From assembly GCF_003073045.1 (NCBI RefSeq), contig NC_037603.1:12964192-13028191 (forward strand): a stretch of 64,000 bases of DNA, given 5' to 3'. The notes under the pieces were generated by a model. That model ran no database searches. It worked only from the letters and a program-made list of their open reading frames with translations, and had not been told where the DNA came from. This document shows positions 16,179 to 49,981 of the stretch, one piece after another. A program made the translations under genes and the position numbers. The stretch's first letter is position 1. Each line of letters starts with the position of its first letter. The stretch comes from Pomacea canaliculata (lineage: Eukaryota > Mollusca > Gastropoda > Architaenioglossa > Ampullariidae).

Positions 16179-17927
16179 TACAGTTGTGCATGATTTTTTT
16201 GGTAGTAGTACACAACGAACAGCTTTTTGAGACGTAGCACAGCTATTGGAATATTTAATGTTTCACTCCTTACTTTTACATATTCTCACTTGTTTTGTCT
16301 ATGCGACCCAAGTGCGGATCAAAGTTTACGGTCGGTTGTCTCGGTTCTGATGTTGCTGCAGACTGACTGGGAGCCAGATATCTGGCGCACACTATTAGGG
16401 TCTGAATCCCTTCAGGACAGCATTTCATCGACAGAGAGAGATAATTGCTTGAAAACCATAAATGCGTAGAGAGTTGAAACAAAGTGTTAGTGACACTCGA
16501 GAAGGCGACCATTAAAAATGTGTTCATTAACCTGAATGTGCACACACACACATACACACACAAACGCACACACACACACCGAACCATCCATGAGGCCGTT
16601 GTGTTCCAGGCCAGACGCCAAACAAACGGTTGTAAACAATAAACACAATAAAATACGTTTTCTACATGTACATGCCGATACTTGTACATAAATTGTTGTC
16701 ATTGATCAGTGATGGAGAGAACCTGTGGTAAACAAGAAAGACATCGCCTTATTTACGGCAAGGTGATCTGTTTACCAGAACAACAAGCTGTAGTGGACTA
16801 AGTGTCTTTATCGCACGTGCCTACGTCATAGACTAGATTACCTGTGATACCTTTCGTCGTTTAACTGCACAGGTATGTGGACAAGTTTATTCTTCCGGAC
16901 TCGTGGCTGGACCACGGGCAAAACATCGTCCAGCTCCGCCCTAAACTCGGTGTTAGCGGTGATGAAGGACCGAACAGCAACCACACACGGGATGCCAAGC
17001 AGATGGTAACCTAAGAAATATCTGAGTAAAAAAAAAGTCTTCTTTTAAGTCACTTTTTGTTATTACATTTTTTTTCTTCTCGTACAGGTAGTCAAGCATC
17101 AACATCGATGTTCTAAAATTTAAGCTTGATACAAATATAAATGAATTTTAACAACGATTTTTATAAGGGGACTAGTAGGCTGTTGATGACTATAAATAGC
17201 ATCTTTTATGTTACAGCTAGAGCAACGACAGATAGTAAATAATTTTCGTCTATCGCCGATGCTCACCTCCAACATTCTCTAGTTTCAGAGGTTCGTCTGC
17301 GCTGACGACATCACGTTCAGTGAGTTTTTGAATTACGCCTTTCAAGTCAGCATCGACCCCCACTGGAGCCCGATCCACGAGCTGTGTGACCCTTGCATCT
17401 TCCGACCCCACGTCGTGGGCAAGATGGAGACCTTCGCGCGTGATGCGCGGTACGTCCTCGTCACTTCCGGTCTGGGTCATTTGCTGCAGGGTCTCGACCA
17501 TGCCAGCCACGTGCAGGACGAGCTGCAGCTGCTGACGCGCTACCACTTCCGGATGCTCGAGCAGCGCCCCCTGCTGCGTGCTTGCCTCGATGACGTCAGC
17601 CTTGCGCGCCGCTTGTGGCGGGCGTTCCAGCTTAACGGTTACATCGCTCCTGGCCGGGGATTCCCCGCTGAGCTTCTGACGCGCGAACTGCAGGGGGCGA
17701 CACCTTCGCAGTCGGCGGCCCTCGTCACGTCCCTCGTGACCGCCGCAGCCACAGACAGCGCATTCGGACATGCGCAGTGGGCTGCCGTTCGTCACCGTCA
17801 CATGGTGGCGGCGTACCGGGCGGTATCGAAGGACCTCCTTGCTGCCATGCAGGAAAGGTTCGCTTTGGACTTCGATCTTTTTCAGTACGACCGCGAACCG
17901 GCGGACATCTTTACTGTGTTGCCATGA
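7136..17927 (+). CDS. Carbohydrate sulfotransferase, HNK1ST/CHST8-14 type (six-exon model)
   Basis: Predicted Golgi type II membrane enzyme that moves sulfate from PAPS to a glycan (Sulfotransfer_2 family). The model joins 7136-7241, 11547-11803, 14563-14781, 15698-15924, 16873-17005 and 17289-17927, giving 526 codons with all phases compatible. Residues about 10-24 form a hydrophobic anchor after a basic MRRR start. The 5'-phosphosulfate loop reads CLVPKVGCTFWKRVF across the exon 3/4 junction, preceded by the family-typical SNLS glycosylation site. The 3'-phosphate motif is FARDPWSRLWSAYVDKF across the exon 4/5 junction. The last exon holds the conserved FxxFLxY and CDPCxF regions. The last four exons are secure, exon 1 is likely, and exon 2 is inferred mainly from splice phase. 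The glycan acceptor cannot be read from the sequence; chondroitin/dermatan or GalNAc 4-O-sulfation would be typical of the family. Confidence 0.85.
7242..11546. other. Intron 1 of the sulfotransferase model
   Basis: AT-rich intronic sequence with a compound trinucleotide microsatellite at its start, a degenerate TATG/GTAT-rich patch (about 9540-9740) and short AC runs near 10160-10220. Short open frames here have no recognisable similarity or coding-like composition. Confidence 0.45.
7630..7694. repeat. Compound (CTT)/(CCT)/(CAT) microsatellite in intron 1
   Basis: Trinucleotide runs of CTT, CCT and then CAT follow one another without interruption. Confidence 0.95.
11547..11803 (+). CDS. Possible sulfotransferase exon 2: stem region
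   Basis: An acceptor at aaacag|ga provides exactly the phase exon 1 needs, and a moderate donor (gtgaac) after 11803 leaves phase 0 as exon 3 needs. The translated segment is hydrophilic, rich in Lys and Glu, with runs such as EDRAEELLKYD, as expected for a Golgi stem. I recognise no domain in it. Without it, exons 1 and 3 would not join in frame. Confidence 0.4.
11894..11960. repeat. Candidate dispersed repeat fragment
   Basis: Contains a TTATATAGCGCC-type stretch followed by CTGGACTCAAG. From memory, stretches of this kind recur as repeats in invertebrate and fish genomes. A self-search of the assembly would settle it. Confidence 0.2.
13176..13243. repeat. 29-bp tandem duplication, two copies plus a partial third
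   Basis: The unit starting ACAACAGATGATCACA is repeated at 13176 and about 13205 with two substitutions, and a partial third copy (ACAACAGATG) follows. Confidence 0.8.
13737..13746 (+). promoter_or_regulatory. TATA-like element at the edge of a GC-rich island
   Basis: The sequence CATATAAAAGT directly follows a GC-rich block of about 240 bp in an otherwise AT-rich intron, about 820 bp upstream of the first secure catalytic exon. It could mark an alternative promoter that omits the anchor exon. It could equally be chance. Confidence 0.2.
14563..14781 (+). CDS. Sulfotransferase exon 3: luminal stem and start of catalytic domain
   Basis: The acceptor is tttcag|aag and the donor is aag|gtatat, both phase 0. 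It encodes a basic/acidic linker, the family-typical RREHIQNMC segment, then HVPSNLSMCLVPK, the first half of the PAPS 5'-phosphosulfate loop. Confidence 0.85.
15698..15924 (+). CDS. Sulfotransferase exon 4: PAPS-binding core
   Basis: It starts after gttgcag with VGCTFWKRVFFHLYG, completing the 5'-PSB loop, and ends in FARDPWSRLWSA, the start of the 3'-PSB motif. The donor gtgagt leaves phase 2. Confidence 0.9.
16078..16180. repeat. (TTA)n microsatellite in intron 4
   Basis: About 34 TTA units with a single interruption (ATC) near 16097. Confidence 0.97.
16873..17005 (+). CDS. Sulfotransferase exon 5
   Basis: It continues the 3'-PSB motif with YVDKFILPDSW. It also has an NHT sequon. Acceptor cacag|g and donor atg|gtaacc; it ends in phase 0. 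Confidence 0.85.
17289..17927 (+). CDS. Sulfotransferase exon 6: C-terminal catalytic region and stop
   Basis: It starts RFVCADDITFSEFLNYAF after a tttcag acceptor. CDPCIFRPHVVGKMETF follows, the conserved C-terminal block of CHST8/9/11-14-like enzymes. The C-terminal half extends about 120 residues beyond that block, longer than vertebrate members. It is clearly more GC-rich than the flanking introns, consistent with coding sequence. The stop is TGA at 17925. Confidence 0.9.
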   Translation, partial: RFVCADDITFSEFLNYAFQVSIDPHWSPIHELCDPCIFRPHVVGKMETFARDARYVLVTSGLGHLLQGLDHASHVQDELQLLTRYHFRMLEQRPLLRACLDDVSLARRLWRAFQLNGYIAPGRGFPAELLTRELQGATPSQSAALVTSLVTAAATDSAFGHAQWAAVRHRHMVAAYRAVSKDLLAAMQERFALDFDLFQYDREPADIFTVLP

Positions 17928-25171: not shown

Positions 25172-28100
25172 GTGAGCCACTAGAATACTGCTAGCCCTTG
25201 GTTTTCTCCTTCCACTAACTTAAGTATGGAGCTAGTTTTGCTTTTATGTTCCTGGTGAGCATTCAGAAGCACAAGGGTTTGATTCCCATAATATTTTGCC
25301 ACCGACCGACGATGACAGAAGTGTATACAGTAGAGGACGGAGACACACCCAGCAAGCTCATAAATTTTCAACCGAACTCAACGACATATCCATACGGCCA
25401 TGCTATTGCCACAGGACTGAAAGAAAGAATGAAAAGAAACTTTTGAGGCATTAAATGATCTTCGCGACATAAATCTCTCAGAGCTCGTTTCGTCCATTGT
25501 CGATGTGTATGGCGGCAGTACAAAGGAAACTCTCCGTGACAATATTTAATGTTCCGGCGCAGTCGTTGATGATTAAAGTGGTATTTAATGGATGTTGCTA
25601 TTTTGAGATTTATTAAAAGTACTGTAAACACCTTTGAGAGTGAAAACTGATGTTTATCGTGGCTCTCTGCCAACCTTTGAGAAGTTGTCAATAAAATTGT
25701 ATTCATTTGCTAATCAGGGGCACGATTATTGAATTATCGGTGTCAAAGGTCAGCTTGAGGACCGGGTTGGTCCCTCTACACAAGGTGTTCACTCATTGTT
25801 ATGTGGTGTGAAGAAAACGCGTCTATAACAAACAAACTGACGATGTAGACCTCAGACTGACTTCAATGGAGCATTTTCGAGAAGGTTCTATGGAACAAAA
25901 GCGAAAGCTGTAAGGATTTTAAGAGCCGAACGGGGCAGGAGAGATATGTTCGACCTGAAGGAGCGGGGTCAAGAAAACATCTAACGGTGATTATTCTTGT
26001 TGGATGACCGGGTGGTTAGAGCGCTGATGTCCCAACTGAGAGGCACACAGGGATGGGTAGCTGACTCTAAAGAGGGTTGGCGAAGGTAAGGCAGGGAGGG
26101 AGAGGAGATGGGTATCGCCCTCACATACAACTGGTTCCCTGAAAAGTGAAGTCTCTAATACATTACTCCCTAATGACCTAACAAAGGTCATGGGTCAACA
26201 AGTACCCTTACCTCCCTCCGCCTGATCGAATCCATTCTTTCTTAAAATAATAATAGAGCTGCTATGTGGCCCAAGCCTATGCATCCACACTTAAACCATC
26301 GTTGCAGACATGGCAGTGGACGACAGTCAGACGACGGTAAAAGCTCAGGTTCAATACCAACAGACGGGGTTGTTGAGTCAGGGACAACGATGACAGAAAG
26401 ATGAAAGATGTTTGTGTTCGATGTGAACACGGGACGCGGGTAAATTCAACAGCAGAATTCTGGCCTTTGTTCCCTCGTAAAATTTTTAAAAATATTTTAT
26501 TATATATGTTAAAATAGCACCTGTTAGGTCACACTCGTTTACTAGGCACTCGGAATTCGGAATATCTCGAGTATAGTCACGTGATACCTGATAGAATATT
26601 CAGGTCGCCTCCTGTACTAACCCTCCAATAGAAAAACTAAAAATGTTCTTCTAGTCATCTAGAAATCTCACCATCAACAAACTCGGATTTGGGGACACAC
26701 GCTTATTTTGTTTCAAGTGACGGTTTTAAGCACACAAAAATTTACAACGGGGTGTTGGGGTCAGAAGGTCGCAACGCGAAGTGAGTCTTTTGTCAAACAT
26801 TTGCACAGTTTGTCAAACATTTGCGTGTTGCCACACAGTTTCTCCTGTCAGGGTCGTATGAAACCCGAGTATAATCCACGGTTGGTTATGTTTGGTTGGT
26901 TTCTCAGTGATTTCTTTTAACTTAAAATACTGTTGGCGTCTACATTTACCCGAGTGTACAAACAGATGTAGTTTAGAAGCGGTGTAAGCTCTCCTGTCAT
27001 TTCTTAGTGGATCCCACTCCAACCTGTTGTGGAATCACAACTCCATCACGAAATAAATGTCAGGTTCACAGATACTAACCGTCCATATACAATCAAGACA
27101 TATTTATTGAAACACGAGGGGTAAAATGGAAGACTGGTGTGAGAAGAGGGGCAGATCTGGGTCACTTCTACATTTTGAAAAAACAAATTCATAACTTTTT
27201 GGATAGCTTGCTGATTCCTACAATCTCGCCTAGAAACCTGGACCTTATAAATTTGTCTAGAAAATAATGATTCTCACTGCCGGATGTCAGCTTGATAAGA
27301 ACATTTGTTTTTAGTTATTCAATTGATGTACGGTGAGCCTGCCTGCTGGGCCTGTAGTTACACTTTTATCTCTAGTCTCACACACACACACACAGTGTCA
27401 CACACACACTTATACATACAGACGTACTTAAATAAACTTATACATACAAACACACAAACACATATACGCAGACCAGGAGAGGAAGAGAAGGTTGAATTTG
27501 AAAAAGCGTTTATTCAAAGAAACATCTCGATTAATTTTTTTTTAAAGCATACCGCTCAACCACATCTAACCAGCTAATCCAAACAAATCAACCATCCTAA
27601 TCTGAGAAGAAAACAACCAACAAGCAAACCATTCAATCAGCTCAGACAAAAATCAACCAACCGCCCGGTGACTCGTGTTGCAGCCGCCCATGACGGGCTG
27701 AGGATTGTCCAGGCCGCCGCAGCCATCTTGGAAAGGCGGCCTCTCCTCGTCACCATCATCAACGACGGCTTTGTCCCGATGACCTACAACTGGCTCTGCC
27801 ACACCGCCGGCATCCCCAACCTCCATGACGACATCCTCCTGCTGGCCGAAGATGACGTCACCCGCCAGCGCGTGCAGCGGGACTGGCCGAGGCTCCACAT
27901 CGTTTCGGTGGAGTCCGCGGGGGGAGAAGGCCCCCGGCTGAGCGGGGAGCTGAACTTCTACACGGTGGCATACGTGCGCATGATGGCGCTGCGAACGCGT
28001 CTTCTGAACGAGCTTCTTCAGGCCGGCTATGCCTTCGTGCTCTTCGAGACCGACTTTGTGTGGTTTGAGAATCCCGTGCCAGACTTCCTGGACCTGGCGC

Positions 28101-28399
28101 GCACGAAGAACCTGGACCTAGTTGGGACCAATTCCTCCGTGGACGACCAGATCATGTGCGGGGCCTTCATCTACTTCCGGAATACGTCCCGCACGCGCGC
28201 CGTGTGGGCGGAAGTGACGCGCTTGATGGAGGAGTTGGTGGAGAAGATGAAGGTTTTAGACCCTACGCAGAGCCCGCCGCGGAAGCAGAACGAGCAGCGG
28301 TATCTCAACAGGCTGCTAGTGGTAAGCAACTGCGCACTCGAATGTCTGTCTAACGGACGGACGGACGGACGGACGGACGGACGGACGGACGGACGGACG

Positions 28400-28435
<36 letters not shown>

Positions 28436-29998
28436 GGAGAACAAGCGAAACAAAATCTTTCTGTTAGCCGTCCATTACCATTTCGGGCATGCCAAACGTT
28501 CACAGCCCAGTCAGTTATTTCTCCGGAAACGATGATTGTGTTCGATGTTAGCAGTTTTGTGGTGGTGATGACGTCAGTCGCTGTAACGTCGATGGTAGTC
28601 TTGTCTAGCCTCAATATAGAACTATGCATAAGTAATCATGTAGCGTTCCAGTATTAATGATGGTGCAAGGAGGACGCACACGACTTGTGAACCCGCCAGG
28701 CCCACCCCACATCATCCCACCCCGCAGCCCGTTAGTAACTGTCGACAAATCACAAATTATCATCTGCTAGAGTGGAATTCCTGTGTGTTTTTTCAATGAA
28801 AAAGTTGTAATGCAAGGAAAGACTCTGGGTAGGGGGGACTGTTTTTTTTCGACAAGCAAAAATCTAATACGATATCGAGTCACATCACCTAACCCTGTGT
28901 AGCTCGTTAAAAAAAGCACAAAAAACACAAAAAGCAAGCAGTTTACCCAAGATGAAATCGGATCCCGATGATACCCGAGTTTAAACCACTGACTCGCTGT
29001 CAGAAAGTTCAAACGATCATATTTTATTGCTGTTCCAGTCCAGGCTGGAGGTTATCTGGTTTCTGTGATTTTTTTGTTGGGGGAGAGGGGTGGGATATGT
29101 CACTGACTACCTACGAGCTTGTCTTATTATGAGTACCCGAGATACAGAAACTGTTATGCTGGCAGCTGCTATAAGAATGTCAATCTTAAAGTTAAGTTGC
29201 CTTTAGACCGTGTCCCAGCAGATGTAGTTGGATCGTCCGAAACAGCTGACAATAAAACCTTTTATAGGGGCTATCAGCCCTGAGGACGTCACGAAGGACA
29301 AGAATGATGGATTTATTTCGACATTTTTAAAGACCATACCGTGTTCAAGTGCTGAGCACCGGATTGTACCCGAGAGACCAAAATATAAAATCCAAGAACA
29401 TAAGTGTCCTTCAAAACAAGACTAGGGTACCGAGGACAAGATCCTTTGACCCCATCCATCTGTTGTCTGGGATACGACATGCTCACTCTCTCTTTCTTTC
29501 TTCACCTAAGGTGATAACATTTATTCCTACGAATAACGGATACAAAAACTACAACAACACCGTGTATGTGAATAGTCTATAAGTGTGGCTGAGTAAGGGC
29601 CTACTCTTATCTTGTTGTTTGCTTTAACAATCCACAATCTAAAATAAAAAGAAAGATGTGGAAAAATGACAATATTAATTTTGTATATTTCATAGTAACG
29701 AAGGCGTTTTAATTTCAAAAAGGATTATTTAAACTTCACTTATCTGTTTTATCGACAGGAAAAGCATAAAGGCATCCGATACGGTCTGGTGGACTTTGAG
29801 ACTAGTGTGATAGACGGAGTGTGGTACAAGTTCAATAAAACTCGGCGTCAGACATTGCACCCCAAGGCCATCCACAACAACTTCCTGGATACCACCAGGG
29901 AGAAGGTCAAGAGGTTCAAAGATTTTGGACAGTGGGTTCTCAACGACGACAACACTTGCAATAAGGACAAAGTCCAGAAACTACTGGAGGGCAAGTGA
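25054..29998 (+). CDS. Type II membrane glycosyltransferase, nucleotide-diphospho-sugar transferase fold (Nucleotid_trans)
   Basis: Three exons (25054-25171, 27684-28321, 29759-29998) join in phase to give 331 residues. Residues about 10-26 form the anchor after a KLRWRWRW basic start, so the protein should sit in the Golgi with its catalytic domain in the lumen. The catalytic part shows LLVTIINDGFVPMTYNW, NFYTVAYVRMMALRT and FVLFETDFVWFENP, where a DxD metal site normally sits, then VGTNSSVDDQIMCGAFIYFR, NEQRYLNRLL and HPKAIHNNF near the end. This is the architecture of the GT77-like family in which plant RRA and RGXT enzymes and many invertebrate proteins fall. The first Asp of the DxD motif is Glu here. 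Donor and acceptor sugars cannot be told from the sequence. It is intact, with no frame breaks. Confidence 0.85.
26005..26190 (+). repeat. Possible tRNA-derived SINE
   Basis: GGGTGGTTAGAGCGCTG resembles a tRNA A box, but a clear B box is lacking; GGGTATCGCCC about 100 bp on is only a weak match. Downstream sequence shares the GGGAGGGAGAGG motif with 24220-24260. Confidence 0.25.
26789..26824. repeat. 20-bp tandem duplication
   Basis: TTTGTCAAACATTTGC occurs at 26789 and 26809. Confidence 0.85.
27684..28321 (+). CDS. Glycosyltransferase exon 2: catalytic core
   Basis: The acceptor is gttgcag|cc (phase 1) and the donor is gtg|gtaagc (phase 0). It is strongly GC-rich against its surroundings, a coding signature. 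It carries the nucleotide-sugar-binding strand, the ETD metal-site region and the DDQIMCGAF segment. Confidence 0.9.
28353..28437. repeat. (GGAC)n-(AGAC)n compound tetranucleotide repeat
   Basis: About 13 GGAC units pass directly into about eight AGAC units. The repeat starts only about 30 bp after the exon 2 donor. Confidence 0.97.
28438..29758. other. Remainder of intron 2 of the glycosyltransferase gene
   Basis: AT-rich intronic sequence; I see no further exon or RNA gene in it. Confidence 0.5.
29759..29998 (+). CDS. Glycosyltransferase exon 3: C-terminus
   Basis: The acceptor is atcgacag|gaa. It encodes IRYGLVDFETSVIDG and the conserved HPKAIHNNF block, then a basic tail ending LLEGK and TGA. 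Confidence 0.9.
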   Translation, partial: EKHKGIRYGLVDFETSVIDGVWYKFNKTRRQTLHPKAIHNNFLDTTREKVKRFKDFGQWVLNDDNTCNKDKVQKLLEGK

Positions 29999-37471: not shown

Positions 37472-37775
37472 ATGAAATCCGAGGCCTTCGCCAAAAAATC
37501 CACTCTAACGGCTCTGGTGACTCTGGTGGTGAGTGTCCTCCTGCCGGACTGTGTGCTGTGTCTGATGAGTGGACACTACTCACTCTATGACGATCTTTGT
37601 GATTCCCGTCCCAGCATCATTCCTGTACCCTGGGACTGTACAGGATACATACGATGCGATACCTCAATCGGAGGCAGAGTAAGAGCTTTGTGGACGCTCT
37701 GTGACCCAGGACATGAGTTCAACCCACAGGTCTCCAAATGTGTTGCGGGTTTCACGGGATGCCTAAATCCTTATG
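37472..37775 (+). CDS. Chitin-binding exon 1: signal peptide and N-terminal CBM14 module
   Basis: The hydrophobic leader spans about residues 10-25, with cleavage likely near the VLC/LMS region at residues 29-31. The module has C1 at DLC, C2 at PWDC, C3 at YIRC, C4 at TLC, C5 at SKC and C6 at TGC, with 5 residues between C2 and C3 and 12 between C4 and C5, the classical CBM14 spacing. The donor gtgagt leaves phase 1. Confidence 0.85.
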
Positions 37776-40700
37776 GTGAGTAGCATTCAATGTCGGATGT
37801 CGTGTCTGAGTCAGAAAGCTTAAAGTTTGTTCTGTTTGAGGATTTGATAATTTGTCGGTAAGCTCTCTGCAGGTCCCGTGCCTCAGAAGACATCTATGAT
37901 GACATTCCATCCCACGAAAGTTATAAATAATCTTTAGTGGACTTTTTGACCTTAAGATATTGGAGCTACATAAATATGTATAAATCTAAAATATAGATAG
38001 TTTTCATCTACTTTTATAATCCGTTATACAGTGGTTTGGGTCAATGGGCCATCTATTTGTACGTCAAGACAAATAGATCTTAATAAGGCCTTTGATCTTT
38101 TGTATTTCTTCTTGTTACATAGCCATAATGTTTTCGAATGCTCATATGTTGTTCATAAGTACCAATACAAAGCTAATGAACTGAAAATTAGTGAAACTTT
38201 TACAAATTTACATTATCTACTTACTATGTTTAATTACCTTACATTCAATTTTATAACACCTGTATAAGAGGTTTTCAGAAAAGGTTGTACTTAAATTTCA
38301 AAAGAATTTTAAAACTTTATTGGCGCTTAATGCTATGAACCCGTATTTCAAAGACATCGTCGTCACCTCAGTACTCATCGGCTTACACTAGTTTGTTGAT
38401 GGATTACCGACTCTTCACATCATCATCCATCCACATCTGACCCACTTAGTCAGACCACTTCAGTCAAGCTCTTTCTCTTAATCAAGTAATCCCCCCTTCC
38501 TCACTTATAGGCAAAGACACACACACACACGCTTATATAGCCACACACACACACACACAAAAGCAAAATTCCAACACGCGCATGCACACACACAAAGATA
38601 CTTCAAATATGCGCAAAAGCAAACGCTATATTTTTTGACAAAACCTTTTTCTTGACAGATATTGCTAAAATACACACCCCAGGTAGACGCCTACACTGAC
38701 AATCCCTGCTCACCTGAAGCATTTGTTCATTCTGACAGCTTTTGCCGCCTCCATCAGTCACGCTTCGTGACTCACCCCTCATACATACACACGTGCACCC
38801 ACAAGCAAACGCCTGGACATGCAAACAAGAAGATTAAAAAAAGAAAGAATGGAGTTATTTTTGGCAGCACGTTTGTCCAAATATGTTTTTGGCAGCCAGC
38901 TTGAGACCTGCACTTCTTCATCTCGTTGGGGCAGAAGACAATGGCGCTTGTTTTGTTGTCGAGCACAAAATTTAGAAACTATTTGTCGCTATGATGGGTT
39001 GTAGGTGTGTAGGTGGTTTATAGGCGCGTTATTGTGTGTGGGTGTGTGTGATGGCCTGCTGAGCCATATGCTGAACTGTTTACCTGGTTACAGCCTTTTG
39101 TTTTTAATCTACTGATTTCAACTTTATTCGGCTAGTCTTCATTGACCATGCGTCATGACTTCGTTTGCACAAGTCCTCATTGCGTTGCACCTTACATTCT
39201 CACCTGTCATGTTTTAACCCTTAATGCGATGTCTCTCGTGATGAAATGGGATCACGTGATAATCAAGCATGATTTTATCCCCTTTCTTGATGATTGGACT
39301 ATCTATTTTGTCTGACAACTGACTGATCGCTCCCACCAACATCTTGGTCAAAGATCTTGGACCCCGTCTTCAGAAGAAAAACATTTGCATTCCGTTAACA
39401 TACTTAGTGTATGTGTCATTATTTGAAAACAGCTATGGGCTTGCACATAGGGCTGTGATATGTTAACTTTATTACTAAAATGTGTGAGTGAGTGAGTGCT
39501 TCTTATTATTTCAATTCATACAAAAGCTCTTAAATGTATGTGCTTTCTCAGATAAAACATACGGTAGTTTGTATCAATAATGCCCTTAGGTTCATTAATG
39601 AATTAATAAATACCGTGCATAGAAATTGTATTTTTAAGTTATTTTAAAAAAGATTTTGGTTATTGAAGTGTTTTGAAAGAGTTTCACCTCTGAATTTATG
39701 TCATTTTGCCTGTCATCTGACCTTCTGTCAGTTATCCAGTCTCTTATTTTGTCCGTGTCATCAATTCTTTCTTGTTCTGTGTAAGTGTTGGGTATATTCT
39801 TGCGTTAACACGTAAATGAGTCATTTAATCAGTGACCTTACATAGAAAGAATCAGATATATCCATCCAAGTAATGTCCTCCTAGTACCACACCTCAGACT
39901 AGTTGTTACCTAACCATAAAAAAACTTTTAGTTATCCATGACATAATTAGTAACCAACATGTCAACACACCTTTGCTTTTGATTTTCGAATTGCAGAAGC
40001 AGCTGTAACATTCTGTCCGGAATTTGCAGCCCTTACTTTCCTTCATCCGGGCTCTTGCTCCATGTTCTACAACTGCAGCCAAATCAGCTCTCGGGGTCCC
40101 CTCCGGCAGTACGAGAGTGAATGTCCTTACCCTCAGCTCTTCGACGCAGACATCTGGAAATGCGTGCCAAGGTCCACCGACAACGGTCTGGCAGACTTCT
40201 GCGGCCAACGCTCGGTTCCCTGCAACCCATGTACGTCAGGTTGGGTGGGGTCAGTGGGGTCGTGTGGTGATGGGTGGAGGCAGTGGTGGTAATTTTTTTT
40301 TCTCTGATTTACCAGGAGACAGATGCAGGTCACGCCCTTTACTTGCCTACAACCCTGCATGATGCTGTCAGTCATGGACTCACTCCCTGTTGTTGAATAG
40401 CCTTGACTTTCAAAACATCCGGCGCCATTTAACCCACGAAAACATGTTTCACGGTCTTTCACGTCCGGATTACGTTCCACACCTTTAGCCTGTATGGAGA
40501 AGTTCAAACGAGTTTTTTCCCCTCCCTCACCCCTTCCCCTACAAACAATCCTCATCGCCTTTGCTTGTCAAGGTCTGTTGCCTTCTCAACCCTTCTACAT
40601 ATCACGCACTGACTGAACCATCACGAACACAGCTTGGCACAGTTTTCTTTTGAGTCATCCTTCTGACTTTTGCAAAGCAAATGAGTGAGGAGGGAGGTAC

Positions 40701-42005
40701 AGGGTTGTGGGGAGGGAGATGGAAGACAAGAAGGATTACACACATTTTTTTTTAGTTTTCCTGCTCCATATTTGTTTGCCTTTCTTTTAGCCGGATGTTG
40801 TTTAGTAAATGTAAAATTAAACACGCGTTTTCTTTCCTTTTTTGTTACTATAAATAGCCCTTCTTTCTAGGGAATATATCAGAGATATCAAACTTTCAGT
40901 CCGGTCGTCACCCAGGAAAGGAAAGCTTGCAGCATAAAGACATGTCCCGTAAAGCTTTCGTGACAGGACACATCCTGAAAACATCACAAGCCATCTTTTG
41001 TTACGTCCTAATTACGTTCTTGCACTGCCAGAAAATGAAGGATGACGTGAGATTACGTCGAAATCCACCTTAGAGCGGTTATTTTTTAAACCAAAGTCGT
41101 TTTTTTTCTCTCTCTCTCTTTAGGTGACTATACAGTAGGCTGCGGAGCCTCCGACAGGTGTGTGGGTCTGGCCAACGGGCCCCAGCCTGACGCCAAAAAC
41201 GTCTTTGCGCCAGATTACATCATCTGTCAAAATAGCACCGTTGCTAAGGCAACCAGCTGCCAGCTCAGCGGCCAGATATTTGACCCCAACTCACTGCAGT
41301 GTGTGTTCGGAGTGAGGGACGGTAAGTGGACTGTCAACGTCAGTTGTAGATACGTGATTCGGCGCCATCACGTAGTTTTTGTATTTTGGCTTTTTTTTTT
41401 TTTTTACATTTTGTTTTTGCTGTTTGAAAATTTAATTTGTTTAACATACATTCATACATGTTCCCTGTTACCAGCTGTAGCACTAGGGTAGGCACCACTC
41501 CTTTGCGCAGACCACAAAGAATGAAGTCTGTACATCAGTCTTCACAACAAACACTTTAGATGGTCGGCTGTCACAAAAAGAAGCCTTGCCATTGTCAGAA
41601 ACTAAGAAACAGCTCAAAGAGCAGTGTCACCTTGAGAATTATTCAAATTAAGGAACAGGGTTGCCTTTTGAATTATTCAAACAAAGAAACACTGTCACCA
41701 AAAGAATTATTCGCAATACCGAAAAACACTGTCACTATAAGAGTTATTCGCACAAAGAAGGTAAGTAATGATAGGAATTACCTGAGGCAAGAAAGTGTGG
41801 CTGTGACGAGAAACGAAGCGACTACCATCGGTAGCAGCACATACAATGTATGAGGTTGTGGATGTCGTATGCGACTAAACATACTCAAGAGTGAAATTGT
41901 TTGGACTTCGCATGCTAACATCATGAATTTATAATTATTTCTGACAATAGTCTAAAAATAGGATTAAAATTGTCGAGGACGACTTTTTATATTATTATTA
42001 TATTA

Positions 42006-42062
<57 letters not shown>

Positions 42063-42156
42063 GATCCCAAAGCAAAATGGTTTGTACATGTCAACTTCGC
42101 ATGGTAACATCATAAATTTATAAATATCTCTGAAAATAGCCTAAAATAGGATAAAA

Positions 42157-42207
<51 letters not shown>

Positions 42208-45200
42208 TGGCAGAGTCCGTGACAGAGTACTGCGCCAAGAAGCCCTACGCTGTGTTCGCGGACCCTTACCACTGCGCCAGGTACTACAACTGCTCCCAGG
42301 TCACGTGGCATACCGGGTTAAGGGCCAAGCAGAACGAGTGCAAATATCCGCTGCTTTTTGACGTCATCACGGCAAAGTGCGTCAGCTTCCATGACGTCAA
42401 ATGCGGCACGAGAGAAGAGCCCATTCAGCCATGTAATCAACATTTGAAGTAATCACTTTAGGAAACACTTTGTGGCACTGTTGTTAGTCGGCTAGCAGTC
42501 TGTCAGAGTGCGTGTTCCGTGTGCTGGCATGGCCATCTGTCTATCTCTCTGTCTCTTTCTCACTCTCTCACTACCTTTTCCCTGCTTTCCATAATCGCCA
42601 AAAATGTTATTATATGTCGACAACAGCTAGCAGTTGTTTTGCTTTTAGTTGTTTGTTCATATACTTCTTCTTCACTTTGTCCACATTTCCTTCGAATTCC
42701 TTGTTTTTCAAATTTTTCATGTATTTAATTTATTTTGTGTGTGTGGTTTTGTTTTTTGTTTTTTTGGGGGGGATCTTTTGTTGTTGTTTTTGTTGTTGTT
42801 TTTTGTTAGTTTCTTTATTTCATTTTTTTCTTTATTTTTTTTTTTTTTATTAAGAATGATCACAGAACCAGAGTTATTGATACAATAAAATCCTGCCTAT
42901 ACTCGGGTCAATCTTATGTATGGGACATTCAGAGGAGAAATTTCTCGAACTTTTTCTCTATATATACTATTCAATGCATTCTATAGGTGTATAATGCATT
43001 CTATATTTATATAATTCAATTCTTTAATTATAAAATGCATTGTATATATATAGAGAGAGAAAATTAGAGAAAATTCCCCTCTTGACGCCCCATACTTATG
43101 ATCATAATTGTCGTCATCGTCATCATCATTATTATCAAAAAATGAAATTATCATGGCAATTATAATATCTGTCTATTGGATTTCTGGTCAAAAATACGTC
43201 TGCCTGTCTTTCCACTTCTTGTCTCCTTTATTCTCTCTCTGTCTAACCATTTGCCTTTCTCTTCACCTTTGCCTCCCCCTGCCACGAGTTGTCCCTTCCA
43301 CAATTCTGTTTCAAAGTATTCTTTCTTTGTTTCCTTCCCCTGCAGGTGATTACATCCTTGGTCACTGTCTGGACCGACCCGAATGCATTCCTTGTCAAGC
43401 CAGCTGTCTGGGGCTGCCCAACGGGTACAACTCCTACCCGGGGTTTGTCTTAACCGCTTATCATATCGTGTGCGAGAATGGACGGACGGTGGACATCCTG
43501 AACTGCACCAAGGGCTTGGTGTTCGACCCTCAGCTTCGCACCTGCGGCTCCCAGATCAGCCCTCGTAAGTGACCATCACTGGCTATCAGTGTTGTACATT
43601 TTTAGATTGGTGGGCTGATGAGTACCTGTTTACTTAGTCTGGATTTTTTTAAAAATTAATTGAATGTTTTATCTGCTCTTGCAAGTGCAATGTTGGTGTG
43701 TTTAAAGAGACGCTGGACCTGTACTGCGCTCAGAACCCGGATGGAAAGTTGCCCCACCCCAGTGAATGCAGTCTCCTGTACGACTGCACGCACCTGATGG
43801 TCAAACCTAATTTTCCAAAGTACGTCAGCGAGTGCAAGTACCCGTATCTGGTTGATGCCGACACAGCGCAGTGTAGACCTCATGACCAGGTGGAGTGCAG
43901 AGATAGACGGGAGCCCATTTCGCCTTGTAAGTCAGTTTTAATCAGTGTGATGCTGTGTTTGTTTCTTTGTTTATTTGAAATTAATAAGTACAAACGTGTT
44001 ACTTAGCTACACCTGCTAATCAATACGTCATTGCAGGTGATTACCTGGGTAATCAGTGTACGTCTCCCCAGTGCACAAGGTGTGACCTGATCATGCCCAG
44101 TTGCTACGGAAAGCTGAACGGTTTCTACTCCGTTATCAACCAGGAAATGACGTCATCGTACATGGAGTGCAGAGACCAGCGTGTGGTGTCTTTATCTTCC
44201 TGTCCAGGCGGCCTCATCTTTGACATGGTGGATCGCAAATGTGTCGACACTGTTTCACAAGGTTCTTCTCTTAATGTCTCTACATCTCAAACAGAAACGC
44301 ACGAACATCTCTCAGTCTCCTAATTTTTTTTCTTTAATCATCCTTTTGCTTCCTTCTTCGTAGTATCCACATCGCATCCCTCAACTGTCTTTGCATTGTC
44401 CAGGCTACAGTTATGTCAAATCTTTTTACACTATCCCCTATCGGTACTAAATGTTTAGTGTTCCCCATCAAGGAAAAATATTTGTTTAGTGTTCATCATC
44501 ATCTTCTTCGTCGTCATCATCATTATCATCAAAAAAAAGTTGATTCACTATACTTCTCTTGTACAATTAATTTTTGTTGCTGTTATTACTGTTGTTACAA
44601 TTTTGTACGTTTTTTTGCAGTTTCCATGTTGCAGTTCTGCACCAACTTTCTGCAAGGCCGTGTACAGAGTCCTGGCAACTGTGCTCAGTACTACGACTGC
44701 ACCCAGAACCTGACGACGGTGAAGGAGTGCAATTACCCAGATTTGTACCACGTGGAGACCAGACAGTGCAAGCACTACACTGAAGTAGACTGTGGAGGGC
44801 GACGAGTTTTTCTGGATCCCTGTAAGTTGTTCGCCCTTCCTTCCTTTTAGAACAGTTTCACAGTCGTAAGGAGCTTGAAAGAAAAATAGCAAGTTTGGAA
44901 GGTCCTAGGTTCAAATGTTGCCTTAGAGAACATGTAGTTTCTATCAAGATTGGGCAGAGGAAGTTTTTTCTAGGCACTCAGCTTTGATCACCCAAGCTCC
45001 AAACAGAAATGACTGCTTGCGAAAATCCCTGTCAAGTGGAGATAATCAGCTATCATCCACCATCTTATCGACTTTACCAAACAAAAAATAATTATCACAT
45101 AGTTTGATAAACTACAAATCACAACATAGCAAAACTTCTTATTTCAGCTTTTTATTCCATTGTACCTTTCCCAATTACCGCCCTTTGCTCCTCGAGGAGC

Positions 45201-46566
45201 AACAAAGAATAAACAAACCTTTCCCAATTTTGACCCACGTTTTCGTCTCTAACTTCGTTCCATGTCTTGATCCATGTTTTCGAACAGGCGATAGCTACAC
45301 CTTCTGCCCTCATGGACCATGCCCATACTGCCCTTCGGCGTTCCCGACATGCATGGGCAGAAATGGCGCCATTGGGGGCTTTAACTTTGACCCACGCCTC
45401 TACTACCGATGTATTGACAACCGCATGATCCTGGGTCAGTGCCAGACCGTCTACAACCGCGACCTCAAGCGATGCAACGAGTCCAGCGTGGCTAGCACAA
45501 CAGCTGTAGCTCTACAAAGCTCCACTCCAAAGACCAGCAAGTTTCCTTTGATTATTTCATGTTATCTGTGTTTCAAAACCTTTTGTCTCTTTCTCTCTCA
45601 AACTCTCACACACACACATCATAATCTGTGTGGGAGAGGACATGTGGATACAAATGTAAGCAATTGCCTGCAGGATATATATTTATTTCTATTCTAAATC
45701 AAGCATTCCTGAATAAGTCACACTTTTTTTCCAGCAACAGTTCGAATTCTCACTACAACAAAAGCAATAACGACTACAACGACATCGACTACTCCACGAA
45801 CAACAATAACAGCAGCACCACCAACAACAACAACAACGAGAACAACAACAACAACAAAAGCAACAACACAGAAAACCACTGCCAAGACAACAACCACAAC
45901 AGTTGCTCCCAAGCTGACAACGTCGATAACACATCATCCGTACCCGAGTCACTCAGGTAAGTAAGGTCAAAGTTATTCAGGTAAGAGAACGGCGTAAGTA
46001 ATTCATATCTGCATCCAAAAGTCGAATGGCACTGTATAGTATTGTGCGTTACAGTTTAATTTATAGATACCTTAAAGTCAAAATTAAGCCTTTGTACAAC
46101 CAGATTCTCTAAGGAGTTGTGTAAAAATTATTCCTTTTAAAGTGAAAGGAAGATATAACTTTCCGCTTTCATTTCAAGATGTCACGAGTGAAAAGAAAAA
46201 TGTTATTATTAAGCATCCAGATTAAATACGGAATCTTAAATAAAGGAATATTTCTTTTAAAGGTAAGGAATGATTTTTAGAGGTTATTATTTTTGTCTGT
46301 CCCTAACAGATATCAACAGCACGTGTGCGAAGGACCCAGGGTTCGTGGCGCCTAAGGGAGACAACTGCGCGCAATATTACAACTGTTCAGCGCAGGTTAG
46401 CCCCCTTGGACCCGTACGTGTCCGAGTGCAGGATTGGCTTCCTCTTCGATGCTGGGAGGGGGCTGTGCTTCCCCCGTCACTCTGTCAGCTGCCAGCACCG
46501 CTACGAGCCGCTACAAGCCTGTAAGTTCAGCCAGGACAGACTCATCATCAGCAGCAGCATCATCAA

Positions 46567-46629
<63 letters not shown>

Positions 46630-49600
46630 CTCTCATACTCTTGCTTTAATCATTTTCTCTATTACTCTTACTACGAGAAGAAGACAAAGAAAATTTAAGA
46701 GACTGAGTGGGGATGAATGGGATCCTAGCCAGCAAGTGAGGCGACCTTACGATTGTAAACAGGAGCCAGAGAAAAGAAAAAATAAACCAAAATGTGCTGG
46801 AGACGAGATCTCCAACCAGGACAGCCAGTCCTCACTGTAGGGTGACACGTTCTAACCCTTGCCCCACCGGACTGGCCAGAGAACAAGAATAATACTAAGA
46901 GGAAGATGATGATAAAAAATTATTGTAGACCTTATCTTTCTGAAATGCAGCCAAACAATGCAATTTTCAAAAATAATATAAAAATTAAAACAGAGGCAAG
47001 TAAACAAGTAAACTGTAAAAACAAAATGGTTTCTGATTGCAGGTGACTACAAGATGCAGCACTGCCCTCCAGACAGCATCGGTAAGACCTGCACCCCTTG
47101 TCACGAGCGTTTTCCGACCTGCGCGGGTCGGACGGACGGCCCGTGGCCTCTGCCCCGGAGACTGTCGCCACTCTACATCCGGTGCTTCAGAGGGAAAGTT
47201 CTGGGTGTCTTCGAATGTCCACACGGTCAGTTTATGGATCCACTGCATAAGGTCTGCACATCACAGTTGACCATGAGTAAGTACTCGTCTGGTTTTAAAT
47301 AAATAAACTTGCTACAGATTAAAATTAATCAAATTATTTTAACAGGATTAATACGGATAAAAATTACTTTTGATCTTATTTCCTGTCACTTCAATTTAAT
47401 GTTTTCTTTTAAAAGACATGTTTACTGTCAGACATATCTTTGCAAATTGGTAGTTGAAGACAACGTAGTGTGAAAATATTTTTCTCTTTTCAGATACAAC
47501 CGTTCACTTTTGCTCGTTATACACCAACATTCTGACTCCACACCCCCGGCACTGCGCGCGTTATCTATTATGCAGAGGAAGGGGGACACCTCCGATGGAG
47601 GAGAATGTTCATACCCCAACCTTTTCTCCAACGGCCTGTGTCTGAACTTCAAAGATGTGTCCTGCGGTTCTAGATATGAACCTAAAGCTCCGTGTAAGTA
47701 AATGGAAGAACACAAGGTTGTTATCCACAGATAGGAGTGTGCGCGTGTGTATGTATATATAGGTGTGTGTGTGTGTCTTATTTGATATCACGGTGTGTGG
47801 TCACGTGTCTTCGTCTACGTGGATGTGTTTGTAGGAATCAAATGGTTTCTAGTATTTATTTATTTGCAGGTGAGTACGCGTCTATGCGAGAGTGTAGAGA
47901 CACCACGTTCATGTCCGACTTGCGAGGAGCGGTTCCCGAGCTGCCAAGGGTTACCCGACGGTTTCCGGCCCTACCCAGGCAAACTCTTGTCGCCCTTGTT
48001 CGTCAAGTGTCAAGCGGAACGGACGATGGCTGTCATACGATGCGTGGAGGGGTTGTTTGACCCCATTTCTTTGAAATGCGGGGCAACTCTTGAGCAGGGT
48101 GAGTTCGGATCTGTGCGTGCGTGTGTGTAGATATATTATAGGATGACATGACTTGACAATCTAGAAGAAAAATTTCTGCAAAATTTTGTCTAGATGACAT
48201 TTGTATGTTATCGGACGTGGCTAAAGTTACCTCTAAGCAAGAATGGCCAGACACATTGTCTCTGGTAGACACGTCCAGAACTGTTTGTCCTCGGACTCGA
48301 CCGTTGCTAGATTTCCGTTTGCAAAACCAAAACACTGTCGAGAAATAACATTAACTGGTTTTGTTTAATTGAATCCTTCAATTTACAGGTTAAAAAAATC
48401 ATGGCAACAGTCCTTTCTTGCTTAAATAATGAACGCTGACAACATTTATCGTACTAATACTTCCGTACACCGATATCATTATTGATCAGTTGAAAGAGGT
48501 CTAAAATATTATAAACAAACAAAAAAAAAAAAAAGGAAGACAACCATTTTTAACGGGTTAGAGAATATGACTGTGCCATTGCTGTAGCACCAAACCGTAG
48601 CATCAACAATAATAACTAAACAACAACAAATAATAACAGTAATATATCATGTACTCATCTCAGAGCTCGGACTATCGAGATGGGGATGTAGCTCAGTGGT
48701 AGAGCGTTCGCTTTGCATGTGAAAGGCCCCGGGTTCGATCCCCGGCATCTCCACATTTTTTTTTTTTTTTAACCTTTTTTGAATACATGTACTAATAAGC
48801 CTGGCACTTCTTTAACGCCATGTCAGCAGCAGGGTCTATGTTAATGCACAGTGCTAAATTTTCCGATCAGAAGATGACCGAATCTGAACTTTTCGAGCTT
48901 GAAAATGGAGATGAGGAATATGGAATTTACGCCGAGCCAGCAGTTAAGCTGTATAACGGCAAACCAGCCAGACCTGCAAATAAGTGTCACATGTAGAAAA
49001 TAAAAAAATAGCGTGTCACAAACAAGATGTGAACCCAGGACAGCCAACCCGTACTGTATTGGTGAGTGGCGCTCATTGCTGCGCCAGCTGACCGACCTCT
49101 GCAAATGGAAAAGTGCCTTTTGGCATCCAGCAACATAAGGGTCAAAGGCATCAGTAGGAGAGGATTCGGCTGCGCTTATCACCTATCGAACTCTAGATAC
49201 GATGAACCACTTACTAAATCTTAGTCATTTAACCCTTACGTAATATTATTCCTTATGTACGAGAATGCTAATGCTTTTATTGTTGTTGTTCTTTTTTTTT
49301 TTTTTTTTCAACAGTTCTGGTCTCGATAGCACGAGATCCTGCGAAATTCTGCGGCCAGTACCCGGGTGCCGTGGTGGCCGACCCTCTGCATTGCGCGCGC
49401 TACTACAACTGCTCACGCACAGGCCCCGCCCACTTTGGACGCCCCTACCTCTCTGAGTGCCGCTACCCCGCCCTCTTTAACCGCCAGACCATGAAGTGCG
49501 ACTCCTTCATCACAGTGCAGAGGACGGCCGGGTGCGGATCTTCAAAACAGCCCATCCACCAGTGTAAGACAATCTACCCGAGATATTTTCAATACTGACG

Positions 49601-49981
49601 CTAATATGTTTCTGTCTCCCTCCTCTAACCGTCACTGCCTCTCCCCTTCTGCTAGCCTCTTCTCAGCTTTGTCAAACAGCATGCACGTGTTAAAGTTCTC
49701 TCCGCTTGTCTTCTGCAGGTGAGTATTCCGCCTACTGCCCCAACACCCAGTACCGCACCTGCAGCGACTGCTACCTCAGCCTCCCCACCTGCCGCCATTT
49801 GACGGATGGCATTCATACCCTCCCGCCAGGCCGCCTGGTCTCCCGCGGCTTCGTCTACTGCCTGGACCAGCGGGCTCTAGTCTTCTCCGAGTGTCCCCCC
49901 GGCTTCCTCTTCGTCAGCAACTCAAAGACTTGCGTGCTGAAGGGCACCCTCCCGCTGCTGGAACCGCCGGAAGTCAAATGA
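37472..49981 (+). CDS. Secreted multi-module chitin-binding (CBM14/peritrophin-A) mucin-like protein, 16 coding exons
   Basis: The model encodes about 1,224 residues: a signal peptide, one canonical CBM14 module, then seven A-B module pairs, with a Thr-rich linker after pair four. A modules have the six-Cys CBM14 pattern with YYNCS around C3, 12 residues between C4 and C5 in nearly all, and a GxRxEPxxPC tail. B modules keep C1, C3, C4 and C5 and the GLxxG and FDP landmarks but lack C2 and C6, and carry a C-rich N-terminal extension beginning C(D/E)Y. All internal introns are phase 1 and nearly all exons are multiples of three. Three exons (46310, 47494, 47870) are one base out of register. 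Such proteins bind chitin in peritrophic matrix, cuticle, mucus or shell matrix; which one applies here is unknown. No transmembrane segment or GPI signal is seen at the C-terminus. It could be a single gene or, if the disrupted exons are real lesions, a decaying one. Confidence 0.85.
37776..39996. other. Intron 1 of the chitin-binding gene
   Basis: AT-rich with AC-rich patches at 38515-38600. No additional exon was recognised; exons 1 and 2 are already in phase. Confidence 0.5.
39997..40230 (+). CDS. Chitin-binding exon 2: module A1
   Basis: Six-Cys CBM14 with FYNCS at C3 and ECPYPQLFD after C4. Two extra Cys in the tail (SVPCNPC), the last split across the intron. 234 nt, phase 1 to phase 1. 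Donor gtacgt. Confidence 0.9.
41124..41321 (+). CDS. Chitin-binding exon 3: module B1
   Basis: It starts C-DYTVGC, then CVGLANG at C1 and GQIFDPNSLQC at C5. No C2 or C6. This is the only B module lacking the CxxC pair before C1. Acceptor ctctctttag, donor gtaagt; 198 nt. Confidence 0.9.
41605..41762. repeat. Degenerate minisatellite, unit about 36 bp, four copies
   Basis: Recurring ACTGTCACC and GAATTATTC segments at about 36-bp spacing, with substitutions and small length differences. Confidence 0.65.
41905..42061. repeat. 66-bp repeat copy 1 with (ATT)n tail
   Basis: The block 41905-41970 starts ACTTCGCATGCTAACATCAT. It is followed by about 18 bp of unique sequence and a (TTA)n run at 41988-42061 with two interruptions. 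Confidence 0.75.
42094..42207. repeat. 66-bp repeat copy 2 with (GAT)n tail
   Basis: The block 42094-42159 starts ACTTCGCATGGTAACATCAT and is a diverged direct copy of 41905-41970. It is followed at once by about 17 GAT units. Confidence 0.75.
42214..42432 (+). CDS. Chitin-binding exon 4: module A2
   Basis: Complete A module with HCARYYNCS and ECKYPLLFD and the GTREEPIQPC tail. The acceptor GTGGCAG directly follows the (GAT)n repeat, so it has no pyrimidine tract. Donor gtaatc; 219 nt. Confidence 0.9.
42433..43345. other. Intron 4 of the chitin-binding gene
   Basis: T-rich block at 42640-42850 and a foldback element (42911-43102), then a pyrimidine-rich tract before a good acceptor. Confidence 0.6.
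42911..43102. mobile_element. Foldback/MITE-like element with imperfect inverted arms of about 60 bp
   Basis: The left arm (42911-42967) and right arm (43042-43102) are imperfect reverse complements. Both include GTATGGG, a GAGG(A/G)GAAATT-like block, TTTCTCT and TATATAC. The 74-bp centre is AT-rich with repeated ATGCATT. No coding capacity and no clear target-site duplication, so it could be an old MITE or a local inverted duplication. Confidence 0.55.
43346..43564 (+). CDS. Chitin-binding exon 5: module B2
   Basis: C-DYILGHC, CIPC, then SCLGLPNG at C1, HIVC at C3, LNC at C4 and VFDPQLRTC at C5. No C2 or C6. Acceptor ctgcag, donor gtaagt; 219 nt. Confidence 0.92.
43708..43926 (+). CDS. Chitin-binding exon 6: module A3
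   Basis: LYCAQNPDG, ECSLLYDC, YVSECKYPYL and the RDRREPISPC tail. The acceptor is the least certain of the A modules: tttaaag|ag gives the required phase 1 and a 219-nt exon, but its pyrimidine tract is poor. Confidence 0.85.
44037..44261 (+). CDS. Chitin-binding exon 7: module B3
   Basis: C-DYLGNQC, CTRC, MPSCYGKLNG, YMEC and LIFDMVDRKC. The acceptor ttgcag is good. The donor is weak: g|gttctt at 44262 is the in-phase choice and gives 225 nt, but other sites are possible. Confidence 0.85.
44621..44821 (+). CDS. Chitin-binding exon 8: module A4
   Basis: QFCTNFLQG, NCAQYYDC, ECNYPDLYH and CGGRRVFLDPC. The loop between C3 and C4 is shorter than in the other A modules. Acceptor tttttttgcag, donor gtaagt; 201 nt. 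Confidence 0.9.
45288..45536 (+). CDS. Chitin-binding exon 9: module B4 and start of Ser/Thr linker
   Basis: C-DSYTFC, CPYC, FPTCMGRNG, YYRC, GQC and DLKRC, then a Ser/Thr-rich tail. It ends at a non-canonical GC donor, CCA|GCAAGT, which restores the phase needed by the next exon; 249 nt. Confidence 0.88.
45735..45956 (+). CDS. Chitin-binding exon 10: Thr-rich mucin-like linker
   Basis: The acceptor ttttttccag and donor gtaagt bracket 222 nt with one fully open frame in phase. It contains no ATG. More than half of the 74 residues are Thr, mostly ACA/ACG codons, with interspersed Pro, Ala, Lys and Arg, suiting dense O-glycosylation. A rival frame is Asn-rich but does not match the phase of the neighbours. 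Confidence 0.85.
46310..46520 (+). CDS. Chitin-binding exon 11: module A5, one base out of register
   Basis: The 5' half reads STCAKDPGFVAP and NCAQYYNCSAQ in the incoming frame. The 3' half reads YVSECRIGFLFDAG and HRYEPLQAC in the frame shifted by one. Both halves match A modules and both splice sites are good. The exon is 211 nt, one more than a multiple of three; the change falls in the C3-C4 loop near a run of five C. Confidence 0.8.
46521..47042. other. Intron 11 of the chitin-binding gene, with (CAT)n/(CAG)n repeat
   Basis: It includes a compound CAT/CAG microsatellite at about 46532-46630 with about 15 CAG units in a row. The rest is unremarkable. Confidence 0.8.
47043..47276 (+). 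CDS. Chitin-binding exon 12: module B5
   Basis: C-DYKMQHC, CTPC, FPTCAGRTDG, YIRC, FEC and FMDPLHKVC. No C2 or C6. Acceptor attgcag, donor gtaagt; 234 nt, intact. Confidence 0.92.
47494..47693 (+). CDS. Chitin-binding exon 13: module A6, one base out of register
   Basis: The 5' half reads VHFCSLYTNIL and RHCARYLLCRG in the incoming frame. The 3' half reads GECSYPNLFSNG and GSRYEPKAPC in another. The exon is 200 nt, one short of a multiple of three, and the change lies in the C3-C4 loop near a run of five G. Splice sites are good. The C4-C5 spacing is 10, not 12. Confidence 0.8.
47870..48098 (+). CDS. Chitin-binding exon 14: module B6, one base out of register
   Basis: The incoming frame gives C-EYASMREC. 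The remainder, SCPTCEERFPSCQGLPDG through LFDPISLKC, is in the frame shifted by one. Length 229 nt, one more than a multiple of three, with the change between the second and third Cys. Splice sites are good. Confidence 0.8.
48682..48753 (+). tRNA. tRNA-Ala(TGC)
   Basis: A complete 72-nt cloverleaf. The acceptor stem GGGGATG pairs with CATCTCC; the anticodon stem TTCGC/GTGAA encloses loop TTTGCAT with anticodon TGC at 48714-48716. The B box reads GGTTCGATCC and the discriminator is A. A T run follows from about 48755, a good pol III stop. No CCA is encoded, as expected for a eukaryote. No mismatches are visible, so it is probably functional. It lies in the sense direction in an intron of the chitin-binding gene. 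Confidence 0.96.
49025..49099 (-). repeat. tRNA-derived SINE head
   Basis: On the minus strand CAGCTGGCGCAGCAATGAGC gives an A box and GGGTTCACATC a B box at tRNA-like spacing. The cloverleaf is degenerate and no clean anticodon arm forms, so it is a SINE or old tRNA pseudogene. Confidence 0.5.
49315..49563 (+). CDS. Chitin-binding exon 15: module A7
   Basis: KFCGQYPGAVVADP, HCARYYNCS, LSECRYPALFN and AGCGSSKQPIHQC. Complete six-Cys module plus the junction Cys; 249 nt, donor gtaaga. Confidence 0.92.
49719..49981 (+). CDS. Chitin-binding exon 16: module B7 and C-terminus
   Basis: C-EYSAYC, CSDC, LPTCRHLTDG, FVYC, SEC and SKTC, then a short tail ending EPPEVK and TGA at 49979. No C2 or C6, and no hydrophobic tail, so the product is probably released rather than anchored. 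Confidence 0.92.

Follow-up and report, generated by a model that had tools for sequence, protein, structure and literature searches.

A 64,000-nucleotide stretch of the Pomacea canaliculata genome (RefSeq assembly GCF_003073045.1, contig NC_037603.1, positions 12,964,192 to 13,028,191 of the forward strand), hereafter the window, carries on its + strand a gene of 16 exons (37472-49981) in which canonical six-cysteine CBM14 modules (A) are paired with CBM14-like modules (B) that lack two of the six landmark cysteines, C2 and C6. The gene probably encodes a secreted multi-module protein built from a repeating A-B pair, in which the B core has no C2-C6 bond, cysteines in front of that core would form a knot, and the whole would bind or cross-link a chitin matrix. 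The exon layout as read from sequence, the cysteine register, the resemblance in predicted fold and the recurrence in the genome are the observations behind this reading; secretion, disulfide pairing, chitin binding, tissue and function are what it proposes. The pattern that a sequence-only reading of the same DNA had described in seven modules is real, and wider than that account. CBM14 modules that have the C1-C3 and C4-C5 bonds but lack C2-C6 are not new, having been solved in mite and human proteins; the front-cysteine extension and the fixed pairing of A with B appear to be new here.

Cysteine register and fold of the A and B modules

The gene contains 15 CBM14-like modules, arranged as one six-cysteine start module, four A-B pairs, a Thr-rich linker and three further A-B pairs, with A modules in exons 2, 4, 6, 8, 11, 13 and 15 and B modules in exons 3, 5, 7, 9, 12, 14 and 16. 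In A, the five exons with an uninterrupted frame follow the register C1-x13-C2-x5-C3-x9..15-C4-x12-C5-x7..12-C6. This six-cysteine register is absent from B, which reads Ca-x5..6-Cb-x4..8-Cc-x2-Cd-x3..6-C1-x19..22-C3-x9..10-C4-x10..13-C5 (Cc and Cd are missing from B1, and B6 was counted only from Cc on). As had been claimed, all seven B exons keep C1, C3, C4 and C5 and lack C2 and C6: none has a cysteine between C1 and C3, where the C2 place holds A, T, T, P, S, S and S in B1 to B7, and none has one after C5 within the exon, so that C6 is found in 0/7. All seven also retain an aromatic residue at the third or fourth place ahead of C3, and the FDP segment said to mark every B module is literally present in three of the seven. 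The cysteine-bearing front extension was likewise borne out, B1 being the copy without the CxxC motif; all four front cysteines are clean in five modules (B2, B3, B4, B5 and B7), and those of B6 are visible only across two different frames. In A1 (39997-40230) a seventh cysteine lies three places before Ca, giving the A1-B1 pair an odd number of cysteines, and this residue might form an intermolecular bond.

Misplaced exon borders, which could have hidden C2 or C6, were also considered. The C2 place lies mid-exon between C1 and C3, so border errors cannot hide C2, and no cysteine stands there in any of the seven. Reading on past the exon end met no cysteine before the next stop in B2, B3, B5 and B7 (in B7 past its own stop), whereas one appears 14 residues beyond the exon end in B1 and B6, and 28 beyond it in B4.

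The junction between A and B is uniform. The codon of Ca is split by the A-B intron, with the A exon ending in T and the B exon starting with GT or GC, at all seven A-B junctions versus none of the eight other junctions of the gene, and Ca follows the C6 of A by nine residues at every A-B junction in the window. Ca is thus encoded by neither exon alone and arises when A is joined to B. Skipping of B1 or B2 (A1-A2 join at 40230/42214, A2-A3 join at 42432/43708) would place a stop at the junction codon, and the remaining four A-to-A joins would give no junction stop.

Pfam, profile comparisons with the PDB and predicted fold support the claim that B modules are CBM14-like. A Pfam scan of ten stretches, covering 10/16 exons, matched CBM_14 in six of the seven B exons (E 4.7e-7 to 1.3e-3), three above the cut-off of 22.1 bits and three below it at E 0.001-0.0013; the partial 66-residue piece of exon 14 gave no CBM_14 match. 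Among the six-cysteine exons scanned, exons 4 and 15 lie above the cut-off and exon 1 at it. A profile built from the seven B exons recovered these exons, its own training set, at E 9e-19 to 4e-30, and a scan of the window with the A and B profiles gave no module beyond the gene's own exons below E 0.09. Predicted structures were obtained for B3 and, as a control, A2, and compared through re-ranked Foldseek matches. The B3 model matches CBM14 structures, EHEP first and Der p 23 and CHIT1 among the best; EHEP (8IN3) also ranks first for A2, as it does when the A profile and the window B profile are run against the PDB. Both models show the three plus two strands of the CBM14 fold. B is CBM14-like by predicted fold and, by its cysteine register, not a six-cysteine peritrophin-A domain.

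Recurrence of the pair in the snail genome

The genome searched comprises 440,159,624 bases in 24 contigs and yields at least 139 matches to PF01607 at E<=0.001. Searches with B2 and B5, followed by profile scans of the retrieved stretches, located 16 further B modules outside the window. Each is preceded, on the same strand, by an A exon, as are all seven in the window, in agreement with the claim that B always follows a six-cysteine A module; the 16/16 count partly rests on the sorting itself, since B was classed by profile score together with position after an A exon. B-profile matches without the front extension were set apart (modules after B, and matches on contigs C1, C2 and C8 and at C13:3.376 Mb). 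Both halves of the split cysteine codon were observed at 14/16 outside junctions, the copy C9b1 showing the donor half only and C9b3 the acceptor half only, and the nine-residue spacing is kept at 15/16, the frame-broken C9b3 giving no clear reading.

Leaving out C9b3, 22 of the 23 A-B pairs from the window and outside were aligned. B keeps C1 and C3 in 22/22 and C4 in 21/21, with no cysteine at the C2 place in any of the 22, and C5 is present in all nine modules in which the sequence used reaches it. The front cysteines, as aligned, are found in 20/21 (Cb), 19/20 (Cc) and 20/20 (Cd); B1 and the copy C9a10 have gaps at both Cc and Cd and keep Ca and Cb. In A, C2 to C6 are each present in 22/22, and C1, as aligned, in 20/21. 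In nine outside genes C5 was found as F-S-P-x4-C in a putative following exon, and no cysteine lies between this C5 and the first cysteine of the next module in any of them. Seven of the 22 B modules match Pfam at E<=0.05, and 13 end before C5. From sequence, the A-B pair appears to recur as a unit in this genome, which strengthens the claim of a distinct module; the absence of C2-C6 is by itself already known from other CBM14 modules.

Distances among A modules correlate with those among B modules (Mantel r 0.76, p 0.0001 for 22 pairs; r 0.80, p 0.0001 for the 15 outside pairs), values raised in part because the array genes are related; the seven window pairs alone show no correlation (r 0.18, p 0.30). 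A tree of the 22 A+B units has two well-supported inner branches among 19 and neither establishes nor excludes a single clade of the seven from the window. On contig C9 (C9:18647000-18707000, L028-L034), ten A-B pairs form a cluster on both strands, and the profile scan found a further CBM14-like module after seven of them. This module after B keeps C2 in both C13 genes (L040, L062) and lacks it in all seven C9 copies read (L028-L034), possibly another instance of a missing C2 within one family. Searches with B3 in viral contigs and with A7 in prokaryote genomes gave no confirmed relatives, as expected for an animal gene.

Disulfide pairing, origin and function

The canonical CBM14 pairing is C1-C3, C2-C6 and C4-C5 (PMC10619976). 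In the available text of the sources consulted, Der p 23 is described with two bridges only, Cys27-46 and Cys56-69, at the C1-C3 and C4-C5 places (PMC12609036), the CBM14 of human chitotriosidase (CHIT1) keeps C1-C3 and C4-C5 and has a different third bond, Cys460-462, near C5 (PMC4844120), and only two of the four bonds of CfAvr4 are found in Der p 23 and CHIT1 (PMC6128652). Because C2-C6-free CBM14 modules have thus already been solved, the earlier statement that C2 and C6 were lost is not supported as to polarity. Nor was the idea borne out that the front cysteines compensate for the missing bond, as Der p 23 lacks a third bond and B1 lacks Cc and Cd. The B register agrees with the C1-C3 and C4-C5 places of Der p 23 (mite, PDB 4ZCE), which shares the four-cysteine core; B has additional front cysteines, and Der p 23 is a single module without tandem six-cysteine partners, for which a cysteine-bearing front extension is not mentioned in the portion of the source available. 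CHIT1 (5HBF, 6SO0) shares C1-C3 and C4-C5, the lack of C2-C6 and a C-x-G-x-x-D-G start; it differs in its third bond, in lacking front cysteines in the aligned part and in being attached to a chitinase, and no extra cysteine near C5 like that of its third bond occurs in the seven B exons. The data suggest that a whole class of snail modules can do without the C2-C6 bond, as the human and mite proteins do.

In the proposed architecture, the repeating unit would be a canonical six-cysteine A followed, nine residues after its C6, by a four-cysteine B with its front extension. As in Der p 23 and CHIT1, the bonds C1-C3 and C4-C5 would hold the B core together in the absence of a C2-C6 bond, and the front cysteines would most likely bond among themselves to form a small knot fixing B on A, making each A-B pair a rigid unit. 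Since Cc and Cd are absent together in two copies (B1 and C9a10), Ca-Cb and Cc-Cd bonds are favoured. The protein would be secreted, its A and B modules would bind chitin or matrix in parallel, and the fifteen modules would bind and cross-link chitin in the extracellular matrix, on either side of a Thr-rich spacer that is probably O-glycosylated. Two points weigh against parts of this account. The copy C9a8 lacks Cb and Cc together, counter to the Ca-Cb and Cc-Cd pairing, and the near relatives EHEP and Der p 23 are reported, in the available text, not to bind chitin (PMC10619976), so B may serve another contact.

If the front cysteines were paired otherwise (Ca-Cd with Cb-Cc, or Ca to A), A and B would form one interlocked domain instead of tethered modules. 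The constant nine-residue linker in the window and at 15 of the 16 outside junctions, as well as the joint absence in C9a8, would suit such a domain; the retention of Ca and Cb in B1 and C9a10, where Cc and Cd are missing jointly, argues against it, as does the lack of a spare cysteine in A2 to A7 (A5 and A6 read as pieces), and the interlocked form is judged rather unlikely. With B1, C9a10 and C9a8 as natural variants, the pairing can be put to the test. Doubtful to a similar degree is the view that the pair is an undescribed 14-cysteine unit at the base of an enlarged family of secreted proteins in apple snails, perhaps also in other molluscs, in which an independent mini-knot at a fixed distance, with its first cysteine existing only after splicing, would lock a canonical CBM14 to a C2/C6-free one and B would have a non-chitin role such as cross-linking or mineral contact. 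A literature search found no description of an A-B unit or of an eight-cysteine mollusc module, most subscription journals lying outside that search and other sources being available in part.

As to origin, B may descend from an older C2-C6-free CBM14 type, like that of chitinases, joined to A by exon shuffling, without loss from an A-like module; this is a substantial possibility, somewhat short of an even one. When CBM14 structures are searched with the 22-module B profile, CHIT1 chains are the sole matches at E<1 (best 7e-4); C1, C3 and C4 align, and C2 is lacking in both. A phmmer search with B3 also puts CHIT1 first, weakly (E 0.018), and all introns are in phase 1, which makes shuffling possible. 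Nevertheless, the seven-module window profile scores the six-cysteine EHEP higher (3.9e-11). Identity of B with the insect peritrophin-B type (CX12-14CX18-21CX10-18CX12CX2CX8CX7-12C in the accessible part of PMC7663561) is highly improbable. That type shares with B the C2-free core C-x18-21-C-x10-C-x12-C, but B lacks the last three, C-terminal cysteines of that pattern, and the pattern lacks the CxxC of B; peritrophin-B identity was rejected on spacing, no B exon in the window having a cysteine after C5.

It is very unlikely that the gene is a pseudogene in decay and that decay accounts for the missing cysteines. Exons 11, 13 and 14 do carry frame breaks, but each of the 15 introns has its splice sites, intact exons lack C2 and C6 as well, the paralogues lack C2, and the paralogue C9b3 (C9, 14.939 Mb) is also frame-broken. 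PacBio reads underlie the published assembly, and the part of the source available describes the correction of single base errors (PMC6129957); together with the breaks in C9b3, this makes assembly indels a plausible cause of the breaks, decay being the other.

EHEP of Aplysia kurodai is a gastropod secreted protein with three tandem CBM14 modules, all of them, in contrast to B, six-cysteine modules with C1-C3, C2-C6 and C4-C5. The nearest published architecture found is that of Lotgi1|231869 of Lottia gigantea, where a low-complexity stretch separates two blocks that together comprise ten peritrophin-A domains; this protein is a major component of the acid-soluble shell matrix (PMC3374290, available in part). 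The comparison is by description only, and the low-complexity stretch is Pro-rich versus Thr-rich here. Egg-capsule chitin-binding proteins of apple snails are described, in the accessible text, as having one VWA domain and 1-3 chitin-binding domains (PMC13394694), and no Pfam match to VWA occurred in the ten stretches scanned here. With three of the seven window B modules passing the Pfam cut-off, and seven of 22 matching at E<=0.05 although 13 of these end before C5, the two-module unit is undercounted by domain annotation.

Gene layout and other features of the window

Splicing was deduced from the genomic letters. All 15 introns are in phase 1, 14 with GT-AG signals and one, after exon 9 (45536/45735), with GC-AG. 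Exons 1-10 form a single open frame of 763 residues with 63 cysteines, and the signal peptide of exon 1 was judged by eye from its hydrophobic leader. The start is placed at 37472, upstream of the range 41124..49981 given in the sequence-only reading.

Table 1. Exons of the window gene and B modules located outside the window.
Feature	Position	Strand	Remarks
Exon 1, start Met, hydrophobic leader, one six-Cys CBM14 module	37472..37775	+	CBM_14 22.1 bits, at cut-off
Exon 2, A1, six CBM14 Cys and an extra Cys near the end	39997..40230	+	
Exon 3, B1, with Ca, Cb, C1, C3, C4, C5, without Cc, Cd	41124..41321	+	
Exon 4, A2	42214..42432	+	Pfam 31.7 bits; structure predicted as control
Exon 5, B2, eight Cys with the split one	43346..43564	+	Pfam 26.5 bits
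Exon 6, A3	43708..43926	+	
Exon 7, B3, eight Cys with the split one	44037..44261	+	Pfam 30.3 bits; structure predicted
Exon 8, A4	44621..44821	+	
Exon 9, B4, eight Cys with the split one, no FDP, runs into linker	45288..45536	+	GC donor
Exon 10, Thr-rich linker, 36/73 residues Thr, no Cys	45735..45956	+	
Exon 11, A5, frame-broken in assembly	46310..46520	+	
Exon 12, B5, eight Cys with the split one	47043..47276	+	Pfam 24.1 bits
Exon 13, A6, frame-broken in assembly	47494..47693	+	
Exon 14, B6, frame-broken in assembly, front part and core in different frames	47870..48098	+	
Exon 15, A7	49315..49563	+	Pfam 26.2 bits
Exon 16, B7, eight Cys with the split one, no FDP, plus stop codon	49719..49981	+	
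Ten outside B modules	C9 18.648-18.707 Mb		
Three outside B modules	C9 14.928-14.940 Mb		
One outside B module	C14 10.893 Mb		
Two outside B modules	C13		

Ten other open frames of the window were compared with Pfam and two matched: 27578-28654 (+) to Nucleotid_trans (1.3e-21) and 17283-17924 (+) to Sulfotransfer_2 (1.3e-13). A tRNA-Ala (TGC) gene or tRNA-derived copy (48682-48754, +) lies within the intron that separates exon 14 from exon 15.

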